Assembly: GCF_900105315.1 (NCBI RefSeq)
Contig: NZ_LT629766.1
Span: 496,001-560,000, forward strand
Direction of reading: 5' to 3'
Source: Brevibacterium siliguriense
GTDB lineage: Bacteria; Actinomycetota; Actinomycetes; Actinomycetales; Brevibacteriaceae
DNA length: 64,000 bases
Position numbers and translations under genes: made by a program
The notes under the pieces: generated by a model
What the model saw: only the letters and a program-made list of their open reading frames with translations
What the model was told of the DNA's origin: nothing
The model's database searches: none
Shown here: one piece after another, positions 118-5,004 of the stretch
Layout: each line of letters begins with the position of its first letter
Numbering within the stretch: position 1 is the stretch's first letter

Positions 118-2433
118 CTACCTGCTCGAGACGCGTCCGAAGAGATTCGCGATCGGCGCGAGCAGCAGCGGTCTGGCGGCGAACCAACCGGCCACGACCA
201 CGACCATCGCGATGAGGAACCAGACGAGTCCGGCCCAACCGAGCATCTCGGTTCCCGCGAACATGTAACCCAGGTTGTGCCGCAGTCCGGTCGTGAACAC
301 GAGGAACACGTGGACGAGGATGAAGAACACGAAGAACAGCATCGTCGGGAAGTGGATCGCCCGAGCCAGCGGCGCCGGATAGATCTTGTTCAGCGTCGTG
401 GCGTTCTTCGGCCACCATTCGCTCATCCGCACACCCGTGATCGCAGCCAACGGTGCGGCGATGAACACGATGATGAAGTACATCAGCTGCTGGAGAGCGT
501 TGTAGTTGACCCACGCATCTTCCATCGGCCATTCCATCGTTCCGTACTGAAGCGCCGCCGACAGCGCGTTCGGGAACACTTCCCAACTGGTCGGCACGAT
601 GCGTGCCCAGTGCCCGGAGACGAAGAGCAGCACGACGAAGACCACACCATTGGCCAGCCACAGCAGATCAAGACCCGTGTGCAGCCAGAGGTTGATGCTG
701 ATCTTCTTCCCACCCTTCTTCGGGGTGTAGAACGCCGGCGGCTTCTGCTGGTGACGCACCTGCAGACCCGAACGGATGATGAGCACCATGAAGAAGATGT
801 TGAGGAAGTGCGTCCACCGCACCCAGCCCGGGAAACCGGGATCGACGAATTCCGGGATGTGGTATTCGCCCGGGTAGCGCTCGAGGAACTCCGGCACGCC
901 CGGCAGGGTCGTGACACCGCGTGCGGCGAGGATGAGGATCCCGGCCACGACGATGAGTCCGCCGAGTCCCAGCCCGACGATCTTCGACCACTGTCCCAGC
1001 GACTTCGACCCGATCATGACCGGTTCCTTCTTCGCTGCAGGCTTCGCCGAGGCAGCACTGCCCGAACCCGACGACGTGGCCTTCGCAGCCGGGGCCGTCT
1101 TCGCGGCCGGCTTGTCCGCGGTGCGTGCCGCAGCCTTGTCGTCGGCCTTCGCGGCGGGCTTGGCCATCGGCTTTCGCTGAGCGGGCTTGTCCGTGGTCTT
1201 CGCCGCGGGCTTCGCCATCGGTTTGCGTTGGGCGGGTTTCTTCTCGGCTCCGTCGGATTTCTTCTCTGACGCCGAGGCGGCTCCCGCAGCGGCCGCACCT
1301 GCACCGGCGGCGGCTCCCGCACCTGCGGCTGCCGCACCGGCACCGACACCACCGATTCCGGTGCGTCGGCCCTGGGGCTTTTTCTCGCTGGAATCGTCCC
1401 CGACCTTGGCAACCGGCTTCGAATCCTGCTTCGCGGCTTCGCCGGACTGCGCGTCCTCGGCCGGCTTGTCTGCCTCGGCAGATGCGGCAAGTTTGGGAGC
1501 GTGTGCTGGAGCAAAGCCCTCCGGCGGCCAGGGGTCTCCCCCGGCGGTGCGGGGAAGTCCGCGGCGCAGCGGTACATCGGAGAGTTCTCCGGAGCCCGAG
1601 CCGTTCGCGGCTGCTGCAGCCACACCGGCACCGGCAGCGCCAGCTGCGGCGGCCGCCGCAGGAGCAGCGGACGAAGTTTCAGACGTGGAATCGGCTGACG
1701 TATCAGCCGAATCGGTTTCGGCAGAGTCGGCCTGAACAGCGGATTCCTCCGCAGTGCTCTCGGCAGGAGCGGATGCAGCCGCTGCAGGAGCAGCGGAGCT
1801 GGCAATCGAGCCACCTGCAACCTTGACGCCGGCGGGCGCGAAGCCTTCCGCCGGCCAGGGATCTCCACCGGCGACACGCGGCAGACCACGGCGCAGGGGG
1901 ACCTCGGCAGCAGGTTCTGCCGCAACCGAAACATCGTCCGAACCGGAAGCGGCGACGCCAGCGCCGGCAGCCACTCCGGCACCAGCCGTCGCGGCAGCGG
2001 CAACCGGGGCGGCCGAGGACTGTTCGTCCGATTCAGCGGACGCAACGGGAGCAGCTGAGGCACCGGGGGCTTTCACTCCGGCAGGAGCAAGGCCTTCCGG
2101 CGGCCAGGGCTGCCCACCCTCGACGCGCGGCAGGCCACGGCGCAACGGCACCTCGGCCGAAGCAGCCGCCTCAGCGCGCTCCTCGACCGAATCCTCAACG
2201 GGCTCTTCGGCCTCGGCGGAAGCGACGGTCCCCGTCGACTCCTCGGCCTCGGTCACATCGGACTCGGCCGCCTCGGCGGGGGAACCTTCATCCAGTTCCT
2301 CCGTGTCGGATGTCTCCGGCAGCCATGACGCGCCCTCTTCCAAGGGTTCGCCGATGGCGCCCTCCGGGGGCCAAGGGTCTCCGCCTTCGACCCGGGGCAG
2401 ACCCGAGCGCAGCGAACTGGAATAGGTTGCCAT
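118..2433 (-). CDS. Cytochrome b561-type membrane protein with repeat-bearing disordered tail
   Basis: This 771-residue protein has two halves. Residues 1 to about 465 are low-complexity (Ala, Ser, Glu, Pro) and carry four copies of an 18-residue motif, LRRGLPRxxGGxPWPPEG, at residues 8-25, 97-114, 180-197 and 289-306. A Lys/Pro-rich stretch follows that twice contains [14 protein letters not shown]. The last ~300 residues have about six hydrophobic segments, with histidines in or near helices (WTHF, LHTG, IHFP, VHVF), and resemble cytochrome b561 / formate dehydrogenase gamma-type subunits. Its start lies one base after the etfA stop, so translation is probably coupled. The context suggests a membrane acceptor or donor for ETF electrons. 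The heme ligands and the role of the tail are inference. The repeat is not a motif I can tie to a described function. Confidence 0.8.
1516..2412 (-). repeat. Four coding copies of the RGLPR/PWPPEG motif
   Basis: Coding copies of an 18-residue peptide repeat lie at 2359-2412, 2092-2145, 1843-1896 and 1516-1569, separated by ~65-90 residues of acidic or alanine-rich linker. The invariant core is G-L-P-R, G-G, P-W-P and E-G. Copies 2-4 are preceded by VP, and copies 2-3 are followed by APAGVK. Conservation of the motif against diverged linkers indicates selection on the peptide rather than recent DNA duplication. Confidence 0.85.
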
Positions 2434-2434
2434 A

Positions 2435-3412
2435 TCAGGACTTGTTCTCGTTCAGTGATTCGATGGCCTGGGGAACGACCTTGAACAGGTCGCCGACGAC
2501 GCCGAAATCGGCGATGTCGAAGATCGGGGCTTCGGCGTCCTTGTTGACCGCGACGATGGTCTTCGAGGTCTGCATACCGGCCTTGTGCTGGATAGCACCG
2601 GAGATGCCGAGCGCCACGTAGAGCTGCGGGGACACCGACACACCGGTCTGGCCGACCTGGTGCGATTGGGCGATGTAGCCGGCGTCGACGGCAGCGCGGG
2701 AGGCACCGACGGCAGCGCCGAGGGCGTCGGCGAATTCGCCGACGAGCTCGAAGGACTCTTCCGAACCGACGCCGCGACCACCGGAGACGACCTTCTGCGC
2801 ACCGCGCAGCTCGGGACGCGACGAGGTTTCGACGACGGCTTCGAACGAGTCGATCGCGGCCGAGCGCTTACCGGAATCGGCGACCTCGAGGGCCTGCGTG
2901 TTCGCGGACTGTGCTTCGGCGCGGGCTTCGATCGAGCCCAGGCGCACGGTGACGATGGGGGCGCCGAATGTGGGAGCGGAGGAAGCGGTGTAGCCGCCGC
3001 CGTAGACGGAGTGGCTCGCCACGATGCCCTCGGAGTCGCGTTCGAGTCCGGTCGCGTCGACGGACACGGCCGATCCGCTGCGCACTGCGTAGCGACCGGC
3101 GATGTCGCGACCGTCGAGGGTGTTGGGCACGAGCACGGCGTCGGGAGCGGTGAGCTCCGCGGCTGCGGCCACGGCGTCGACGGCCGCGGTGCCGAGGTTG
3201 CCCTCGGCGGCTGCGGCGGTCAGGGTCGCCACGGCGCCGAGTTCGGCGGCCTTTTCGGCAGCAGCGTCGGCGCTGCCGGCGGCGAGCACGAGGGCGACGG
3301 GCGAGCCGATCTCAGCGGCGCCGCCGAGCAGTTCGGCGGCCGGCTTCTCCAACTGGCCCTCGGCATCGGCGGTGAGGACGACGAGAATGGAATCCTGTGG
3401 GAATTCTGACAT
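2435..3412 (-). CDS. etfA: Electron transfer flavoprotein alpha subunit
   Basis: A 325-residue EtfA/FixB protein, the usual family length. The C-terminal FAD domain is recognisable by [15 protein letters not shown], the [10 protein letters not shown] segment, QVGQTG and the [20 protein letters not shown] block that binds the flavin. With EtfB it forms the soluble heterodimer that takes electrons from acyl-CoA and other flavin dehydrogenases. It lies 11 bases after etfB and one base before the cytochrome b-like gene, so the three form one minus-strand operon. The start at 3412 (MSEFPQDS) follows a purine-rich AAGGAG-type site. Confidence 0.95.
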
Positions 3413-3423
3413 GACGATTCTCC

Positions 3424-4200
3424 TTAGGCCAGACGGTTCTTGGTGAGGTATTCGGCGAGTTCGACTCCGCCATTGCCTTCGTCGACGACCTTCTCGCCGG
3501 CTTCGCGCGGCGGCTTCTCGGCGACGGTGACCATGATCGAACGGGCCACGGACTGGTCCTCGGCGTCGATGTCGAGATCGGACAGGCTGATGACCTCGAA
3601 GGGCTTCTTCTTCGCTGCCATGATGCCCTTGAAGTTCGGGAATCGGGCCTCGGGAAGCGCCTCGGTGATAGAGATGACGGCGGGCAGTTCGGCCGAGACC
3701 TGCTGCTTGCCGCCTTCGACGCCGCGGGTGCCCGAGACCTTACCGTCGGCAAGTTCGACGGTCGACAGGCCGGTCACGTGCGGGTAGTCGAGGTGCTCAG
3801 CGAGCATCGCCGGCATCATGCCGCCGTTGCCGTCGGTGGAGATGTTGCCGGTGACGACGAGGTCGAATTCACCGCGGCGCAGAGCAGCAGCGAGCACCTC
3901 TGCGGTCAGACCGAGATCAGCGCCGGCCAGCGACTCATCGGCCACGTGCACGGCATTGTCGGCGCCCATGGCCAGACCCTTGCGGATCGTGGCGGTCGCG
4001 GTATCGGGCGCCATCGAGATGACGGTCACCTCGGTGTCGCCGTCGCTGTCCTTCTGGGTCAGTGCAACCTCGAGGGCACGCTCACCGATCTCATCGAGAA
4101 CAGCTTCCGAGGCGCCGCGATCGGCGAGCCCGGTTTCCAAGTTCAACTTGCGGTCGCCGTACGTATCCGGGACCTCTTTGACCAACACCGCGATCTTCAA
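3424..4200 (-). CDS. etfB: Electron transfer flavoprotein beta subunit
   Basis: EtfB/FixA, 258 residues. I place the start at a TTG codon (4198-4200) because AAGGAG (4207-4212) sits six bases upstream and the protein then begins in the usual family way with (M)[16 protein letters not shown]. The longer in-frame version would add 11 unsupported residues. Family features include the AMP/FAD-proximal region [34 protein letters not shown], and the recognition-loop-like [19 protein letters not shown]. It is first in the etfB-etfA-cytochrome b operon. Acyl-CoA dehydrogenases, one of which lies at 19.4 kb, are likely electron donors. Confidence 0.95.
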
Positions 4201-4548
4201 GGATGTCTCCTTAGGTTCGTGAAGCAGCTCCAACTGCGTGAGACTTTCGTCTCATAATCTACAGGTGACTGATTTCCGTCCGTTGACCGGGTCCAGTCGG
4301 AACCGGTCATGTCCTTCACCCATGGTACGTGGTAGGCACCACAGCTATCTCCGTTACTGTACGAACGATCGACAGAATTTGTCCAGTATCGAAAAGAGGG
4401 ATCCTCGCCGAGGCGGGGCCCTAGAATGGGAGCAGACCGACCGACCCTCCCGGTGTGCATCGCCGCCCCCTTTGCACGGACGCATCCGGGCAGGTAGAAC
4501 CCGGAGGTCACAGACAAGACGCAGACATCAAAGGTGAAGGAGCGCCCC
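4201..4548. promoter_or_regulatory. Divergent control region between etfB and lrp
   Basis: This intergenic stretch of about 350 bases separates the etf operon from the Lrp gene. It contains a perfect 5-bp hairpin with a four-base loop at 4240-4253, close to an AT-rich stretch (about 4250-4262) that could hold the etf promoter. It also carries one intergenic copy of the frequent CGCCGAGGC motif (4406-4414). I see no convincing coding potential; an ORF crossing it at 4197-4769 has no family resemblance. Confidence 0.4.
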
Positions 4549-5004
4549 GTGGCTTTCGACCTCGACGACATCGACCGCAGCATCATCGCTGCCCTCGTCG
4601 AGGATTCACGGCTGAGCGTGCGCCAACTGGCCGAACGCGTCCACATCTCCCGTTCGGCCGCGCACAAGCGCTTCACCACCCTCATCGAGTCCGGTGCAAT
4701 ACGGAAGTTCACCGCCGAGGTGGACCGTGAGGCCCTGGGCATGACCGTGACCGCGGTCGTCGTCGTCAAGATCGGCGAGCGTCCCTGGCCGCAGGTTCGC
4801 GAGGATCTGGCCGCCCTGCCGTTCGTCGAGAAGGTTCAAGCCGTCAGTGGGGACATCGACGCCCTTGTCACCGTGAACGCCCCGGACAATACGGCCCTGT
4901 CACAGGTGATCCTGCGCCGCATCCACGAAGTCCCGGGCGTCGTGTCCTCCCGCTCCCTCCTCATCCTCGATGAGGCGGAGGGCCATAGGCCGGGAGCGGG
5001 CTGA
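4549..5004 (+). CDS. Lrp/AsnC-family transcriptional regulator
   Basis: A 151-residue regulator. The N-terminal winged helix-turn-helix (about residues 4-60, DDIDRSIIAALVEDSRLS...HISRSAAHKRFTTLIESGAI) is followed by a RAM/AsnC ligand-binding domain with the typical V-G-x-x-D motif (SGDIDALVTV). I chose the GTG at 4549 because AAGGAG (4537-4542) is six bases upstream; a GTG at 4534 would sit on that ribosome binding site. It is divergent from the etf operon and may control it in response to an amino acid or 2-oxoacid, but that is positional inference. Confidence 0.88.
   Translation: MAFDLDDIDRSIIAALVEDSRLSVRQLAERVHISRSAAHKRFTTLIESGAIRKFTAEVDREALGMTVTAVVVVKIGERPWPQVREDLAALPFVEKVQAVSGDIDALVTVNAPDNTALSQVILRRIHEVPGVVSSRSLLILDEAEGHRPGAG

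Follow-up and report, generated by a model that had tools for sequence, protein, structure and literature searches.

A cytochrome b561-type protein with a repeat-bearing tail, encoded next to etfBA in Brevibacterium siliguriense, as a candidate ETF:menaquinone oxidoreductase

The closest described counterpart of the system considered here is EtfD, the mycobacterial electron transfer flavoprotein (ETF):menaquinone oxidoreductase (PDB 9ojn), which is held to oxidise ETF and has a long disordered tail with interspersed repeats that AlphaFold3 predicts to contact ETF (PMC13083937). Our subject is a three-gene locus in a 64,000-nucleotide stretch of the Brevibacterium siliguriense genome (contig NZ_LT629766.1, positions 496,001 to 560,000; “the window”), in which etfB and etfA are followed by the gene of a membrane cytochrome with a long tail. 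EtfD and the window cytochrome are alike as membrane b-heme proteins (the heme being predicted here) held, or in our case proposed, to carry ETF electrons to menaquinone, and alike in having a long tail with interspersed repeats. EtfD differs in that CCG and 4Fe-4S domains, of which the window protein has none, stand between ETF and heme, in that its tail is C-terminal whereas that of the window cytochrome is N-terminal, and in its cytochrome family, that of the window protein being PF01292. The classical ETF:quinone oxidoreductase (ETF-QO; PF05187) performs the net reaction that we propose for the window cytochrome, from which it differs in being a flavin and 4Fe-4S enzyme. Relative to prokaryotic cytochrome b561, FdnI of formate dehydrogenase N and HyaC of hydrogenase-1, the window protein has an extra N-terminal helix, the repeat tail and the ETF linkage. 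Two proteins of related genomes (L118, 4832-6670; L119, 4998-6986) match this membrane domain too, but in them it is covalently joined to another redox partner; they differ in that this partner is a C-terminal PF00174 molybdopterin oxidoreductase domain and in lacking the tail motif described below. A literature search, in which relevance was judged by title, found no description of an ETF-linked cytochrome b561 in actinobacteria or in Brevibacterium.

From comparison of sequences, we consider it likely that the tailed cytochrome works as an ETF:menaquinone oxidoreductase, combining a diheme cytochrome b with a multivalent ETF-docking tail; such a tethered oxidoreductase is the most economical reading of the locus. 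The operon would supply a dedicated ETF (EtfAB) together with its own membrane oxidant. Acyl-CoA and related dehydrogenases would reduce EtfAB in the cytosol, where RRGLPRxxGGxPWPP peptides of the N-terminal tail, which is probably cytosolic, would catch the reduced ETF and keep its local concentration high close to the membrane domain. From the ETF flavin, electrons would then enter one of a pair of b hemes and from there reach menaquinone, along a path that would need no iron-sulphur or flavin relay. That the tail captures ETF was the central idea of the original prediction, and it draws support from the linkage of motif and etfBA, from motif-free EtfA-cytochrome fusions and from the mutual exclusion of the cytochrome and EtfD, each set out below.

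The layout itself was correctly predicted: open reading frames and Pfam domains place etfB, etfA and the cytochrome gene in that order, with a single base (position 2434) between the last two, and both ETF subunits score above the Pfam cut-offs (PF01012 in EtfA and EtfB, PF00766 in EtfA; Table 1). The tail had been foreseen as a low-complexity segment with four copies of an LRRGLPRxxGGxPWPPEG-type motif, which it is, although it had been put at the wrong end of the protein: it occupies approximately residues 1-480, with 27.7% alanine over the first 455, and the membrane domain is C-terminal. Two of the four copies deviate, the first reading LRSGLPR and the third ending in PWPAEG.

The motif is conserved. 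A search with the membrane domain found 1717 homologues, and among the 120 matches listed, 117 carry at least one GxPRxxGxxP (maximum four). For copy statistics, the core [RK][RQSAT]G[LFIVM]P[RK] was picked in the 72 etf-linked loci of a sample of named genomes (see below), giving 237 copies, 2 to 7 per protein (three in 44 proteins), at spacings of 7 to 246 residues (median 87). After the core, each of two G positions is G in 218/237 copies, followed by W in 217/237 and the next P in 222/237. The core positions are not independent evidence, because the pattern demands them, in contrast to the GG and WP positions, which are. Together with the 117 of 120 listed homologues, the retention of these G and W positions indicates that the motif is more than chance.

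The motif is also strictly tied to an adjacent etfBA. In an evenly drawn sample of 198 genomes of the order, the membrane domain matched 51 genomes at E 1e-20; close relatives (E <1e-60) amount to 45 proteins in 43 genomes, after exclusion of nine weaker matches, one of which (L118) is the molybdopterin fusion mentioned above, its counterpart L119 coming from the class sample. Twenty-five of the 45 directly adjoin etfA and 20 do not, “unlinked” meaning not adjacent to etfA. The core [RK]xG[LFIVM]P is present in 25/25 linked cytochromes and 0/20 unlinked ones. One genome in which etfA and the cytochrome lie at the ends of two contigs, with motif copies on each, was scored as linked (G229), and in one linked cytochrome (G204) the motif has decayed to three RRxGLP-like copies that lack PWP. 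The named sample, comprising the best 80 of 536 loci, overlaps the order sample, and the two are not independent; linkage holds in 72 of its 80 loci, and two or more cores are present in every one of these 72, in the full pattern in 66 and as variant or decayed copies in six. Two of the other eight are cut by a contig end (L145, in which the motif is present, and L161), and the six intact loci, five from Corynebacterium and one from Zhihengliuella, are both non-adjacent to etfA and motif-free. Absence of the motif from other etf-linked homologues had been named beforehand as a refuting outcome, and in both samples every linked cytochrome proved to carry it. Around 17 of the 20 tail-less cytochromes, crude gene calls revealed no evident common partner.

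Occurrence of the motif in further proteins was considered as a clue to the partner and set aside. Of the 198 genomes, 34 gave a match at E 0.01; in 24 of them the matches below 1e-3 sit in the etf-linked cytochrome, the exception below that value being a 136-residue frame in G243 (E 2.3e-4), and the other ten have a single match each, at E 0.001-0.01, which we take as noise. The decayed motif of G204 was missed by this search. Within the window's own genome, a two-copy motif query matched only this cytochrome (four times), the fifth match, at E 0.44, being noise.

Such an association could arise by descent alone, with motif and linkage co-inherited, the tail having some other job (clustering, lipid binding or stability) and the match to etfBA being a clade effect. 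A tree of 63 membrane domains picked for diversity (37 linked, 21 unlinked, 5 Corynebacterium) lends this some room, as it holds only three trait changes in all, two of them on supported branches. On the same tree motif and linkage are concordant in 63/63 rows, and the Corynebacterium cytochromes, which have neither linkage nor motif but retain a long Ala-Pro tail, branch next to Brevibacterium within the linked clade (100/92, 100/99, 98/82; bootstrap not settled). This nesting indicates that they lost motif and etf linkage together while keeping the tail, which, with fusions that keep EtfA yet lose the motif, makes co-inheritance alone very unlikely. The cytochrome of G333 also lies inside the linked clade, the placement of G333 and G121 being less sure and varying between trees; an ETF alpha gene is lacking from these two and from four more genomes whose cytochrome is tail-less. 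In the motif-free Corynebacterium tails we observed a different short sequence, GxP[ILM]KL, in four of five cytochromes (L150, L151, L168 and L202; twice in L150), which might serve their canonical ETF as an alternative docking code.

EtfA follows the same division. In a quick tree, the 90 cytochrome-adjacent EtfA rows together with two EtfA-cytochrome fusions split from 15 other EtfA with a Shimodaira-Hasegawa-like approximate likelihood ratio test (SH-aLRT) value of 100; the window EtfA is a member of the clade found beside the tailed cytochrome, and the EtfA of Corynebacterium is a closer match to canonical than to linked EtfA. EtfA and EtfB residues covarying with motif decay were considered as a docking site and set aside, being scattered positions with no clear pocket. 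One genome (G000, locus L121) carries, besides its first ETF alpha gene, another that is very divergent, at G000:C1:195312-195551.

A search with EtfA, motif and membrane domain joined as one query identified two natural fusions, P0121 (641 amino acids) and P0125 (628 amino acids), with ETF, ETF_alpha and PF01292 domains. RxGLP, GxPR and PWP are absent throughout both, and the linkers are short, approximately 30 residues in one and 10-15 in the other. The two lie apart on the trees, the cytochrome of P0125 grouping with tail-less and molybdopterin-fused cytochromes, which suggests two separate origins; a profile search started from the pair revealed no third fusion among the matches listed (120 of 3097). 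Absence of the motif from both is what would be expected if the tail merely tethers ETF. It sits less well with the idea that the tail captures another protein of the ETF pathway, such as an acyl-CoA dehydrogenase, another dehydrogenase linked to ETF, or a missing relay subunit, the etf linkage then reflecting the pathway only. That idea gains from the tie to etfBA being genetic only and from AlphaFold2 giving no ETF docking (see below), and loses from the direct fusions dropping the motif, from the motif accompanying one EtfA clade and from the repeat tail of mycobacterial EtfD being predicted to contact ETF (PMC13083937); on balance we regard it as unlikely.

AlphaFold2 models the membrane domain with a mean predicted local distance difference test (pLDDT) score of 83.3, and by VIA-align against the PDB its predicted fold comes closest to the b subunits of diheme cytochromes. 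His 542, 585, 694 and 708 (positions 85, 128, 237 and 251 of the aligned piece) are invariant in 30/30 aligned relatives and, lying in membrane helices, are predicted to be able to hold two hemes. PF01292 is the sole Pfam domain of the cytochrome, with no CCG, 4Fe-4S or PF05187 domain, and is matched by 30/30 aligned relatives at E 0.001. Searching PDB sequences with the membrane domain gave nothing at E 1 for the single sequence and one match, at E 0.042, for a profile. The label “thiosulfate reductase cytochrome b”, used by some sources for homologues, is rejected because the score against the PhsC model (NF011582) is 24.6 bits, far below the equivalog cut-off of 204; that against the Ni/Fe-hydrogenase b-type cytochrome (HyaC) model (TIGR02125) is likewise far below, at 18.9 bits for a cut-off of 121.5.

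Absence of a classical ETF-QO, originally offered as a discriminating sign, had to be discarded as support: PF05187 is missing from all 148 genomes of the class sample (control genomes positive in 3/14) and from the window's own genome, and its absence does not discriminate, which makes EtfD the useful comparison. EtfD was identified by means of a Brevibacterium protein matching 9ojn_A at E 1.1e-190; judging by the length (1042) and name of 9ojn_A, we equate it with the M. smegmatis EtfD described in PMC13083937. At a call threshold of E 1e-60, EtfD occurs in 131/148 class genomes and 56/198 order genomes, in 0/43 order genomes with the cytochrome, and not in the window's own genome; it was not found in 18 named genomes with the cytochrome, in a search without a positive control. 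The 15 sampled Brevibacterium genomes all have ETF; the cytochrome occurs in ten, with a tail in seven and without one in three, and EtfD in five, with no overlap. Naive p values for this exclusion (7e-8 in the order, 3e-4 in the genus) are too optimistic, because the genomes are related. Hidden EtfD was considered in G166, G274, G179 and G325 and rejected, their CCG proteins (long frames) having no membrane part and presumably resembling glycolate-oxidase iron-sulphur subunits; those of G288 and of the window's own genome we take to resemble LutA. In cytochrome-bearing Brevibacterium, the CCG proteins other than that of G201 thus seem to be soluble subunits of these two types.

The exclusion also bears on the direction of electron flow. 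Sequence cannot reveal direction, and known diheme b-type membrane subunits work in either, so menaquinol might reduce ETF and thereby drive a reductive reaction. Within a single genus, the cytochrome replaces EtfD, itself held to oxidise ETF (PMC13083937), and we think reverse flow extremely unlikely.

Several observations weigh against a tethered ETF:menaquinone oxidoreductase. Motif and linkage changed together, independently and on supported branches, only twice, both times in agreement, which is too few for significance (sign test p 0.5). The PF01292 score of P0125 (27.0) is below cut-off, and each fusion is a single sequence on a contig of <5 kb, where an assembly error is possible. Four unlinked cytochromes (L100, L102, L107 and L195) are followed on their own strand, approximately 5.6-6.8 kb downstream, by a canonical etfBA. 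An AlphaFold2 model of an EtfB-EtfA-tail read-through shows no docking, with block means of 27-42 for the tail and its motifs; in the same single run the flavin adenine dinucleotide (FAD) domain of EtfA was poor too. Direct reduction of a b heme by an ETF flavin, with no iron-sulphur or flavin relay in between, is not known to us. Finally, the 145 ETF-bearing order genomes, a count that includes G291 despite its falling below the Pfam cut-off, divide into 25 with a tailed cytochrome, 12 with a tail-less one only, 56 with EtfD and 52 with none of these. In the 12 EtfD-free genomes (three of them Brevibacterium), whose only cytochrome is tail-less and not directly linked, the tail may be dispensable or something else may be used. 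The 52, which have neither EtfD nor a close cytochrome relative, imply that other ETF oxidants must exist, and may hold a further undescribed one; PF05187 was checked in the class sample only.

EtfD tails were surveyed in 36 loci, of which six (L218, L223, L224, L226, L233 and L244, all family f8) have C-terminal tails of 274-454 residues with 3 to 7 KG[LF][GA][IMVF] repeats each, 33 in total; the other 30 have <60 residues there. The five Brevibacterium EtfD have no long repeat tail. The repeat of the long-tailed proteins, KG[LF][GA][IMV]...KxPG, shares with RxGLP the basic residue, the G and, in most cases, the L, a likeness that is suggestive only and too weak for homology. More tentatively, and with rather less confidence than in the oxidoreductase itself, we suggest that the cytochrome may represent a third, non-homologous and relay-free class of actinobacterial ETF:menaquinone oxidoreductase. 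The ETF oxidants of the phylum might share a disordered, multivalent tail of short docking peptides, each code (RRGLPR...PWP here, KGLG...KRPG for mycobacterial-type EtfD and perhaps PxKL for Corynebacterium) fitting a single ETF clade and insulating parallel ETF circuits.

Features of the locus are collected in Table 1. The start codon of etfB was picked for agreement with homologues, and cytochrome homologues of 95-99% identity come from Brevibacterium. The hairpin following the cytochrome stop codon was folded in an 81-base stretch (-49 kcal/mol, z -5.83). An Lrp/AsnC-type regulator gene lies divergent to etfB on the plus strand (window 4534-5004); a relative of it (E 1e-20) is present at 7/7 and 15/15 Brevibacterium etf-cytochrome loci of the order and named samples and at no other locus of either set.

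Table 1. Coordinates in the window of the etfB-etfA-cytochrome locus and its features.
Feature	Position	Strand	Basis
etfB (ETF beta subunit, 258 amino acids, TTG start at 4200)	3424..4200	minus	Open reading frame; PF01012 E 3.2e-32
etfA (ETF alpha subunit, 325 amino acids)	2435..3412	minus	PF00766 E 1.7e-32, PF01012 E 4e-18
Tailed cytochrome b561-type membrane protein (771 amino acids)	118..2433	minus	PF01292 36.6 bits, cut-off 30.1
Motif copy 1, residues 9-25	2359..2409	minus	
Motif copy 2, residues 98-114	2092..2142	minus	
Motif copy 3, residues 181-197	1843..1893	minus	
Motif copy 4, residues 290-306	1516..1566	minus	
Membrane domain, approximately residues 470-771, C-terminal, six long helices	118..1026	minus	AlphaFold2, invariant His, loop charges
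Terminator-like hairpin, just 3' of the cytochrome stop codon	59..101	minus	Folding

If our reading is true, the tailed cytochrome would be a third, previously undescribed route coupling fat burning to the respiratory chain. It would help to explain the repeat tail of EtfD, and P0121 and P0125 would offer a case of a natural fusion replacing a short-linear-motif tether. Among the 145 ETF-bearing genomes of the order, 89 are without EtfD, and the class sample yielded no classical ETF-QO; 25 of those 89, Brevibacterium among them (with Arthrobacter, Leucobacter, Microbacterium and others in the named sample), would gain a concrete candidate gene, a motif and mutations to make in it.

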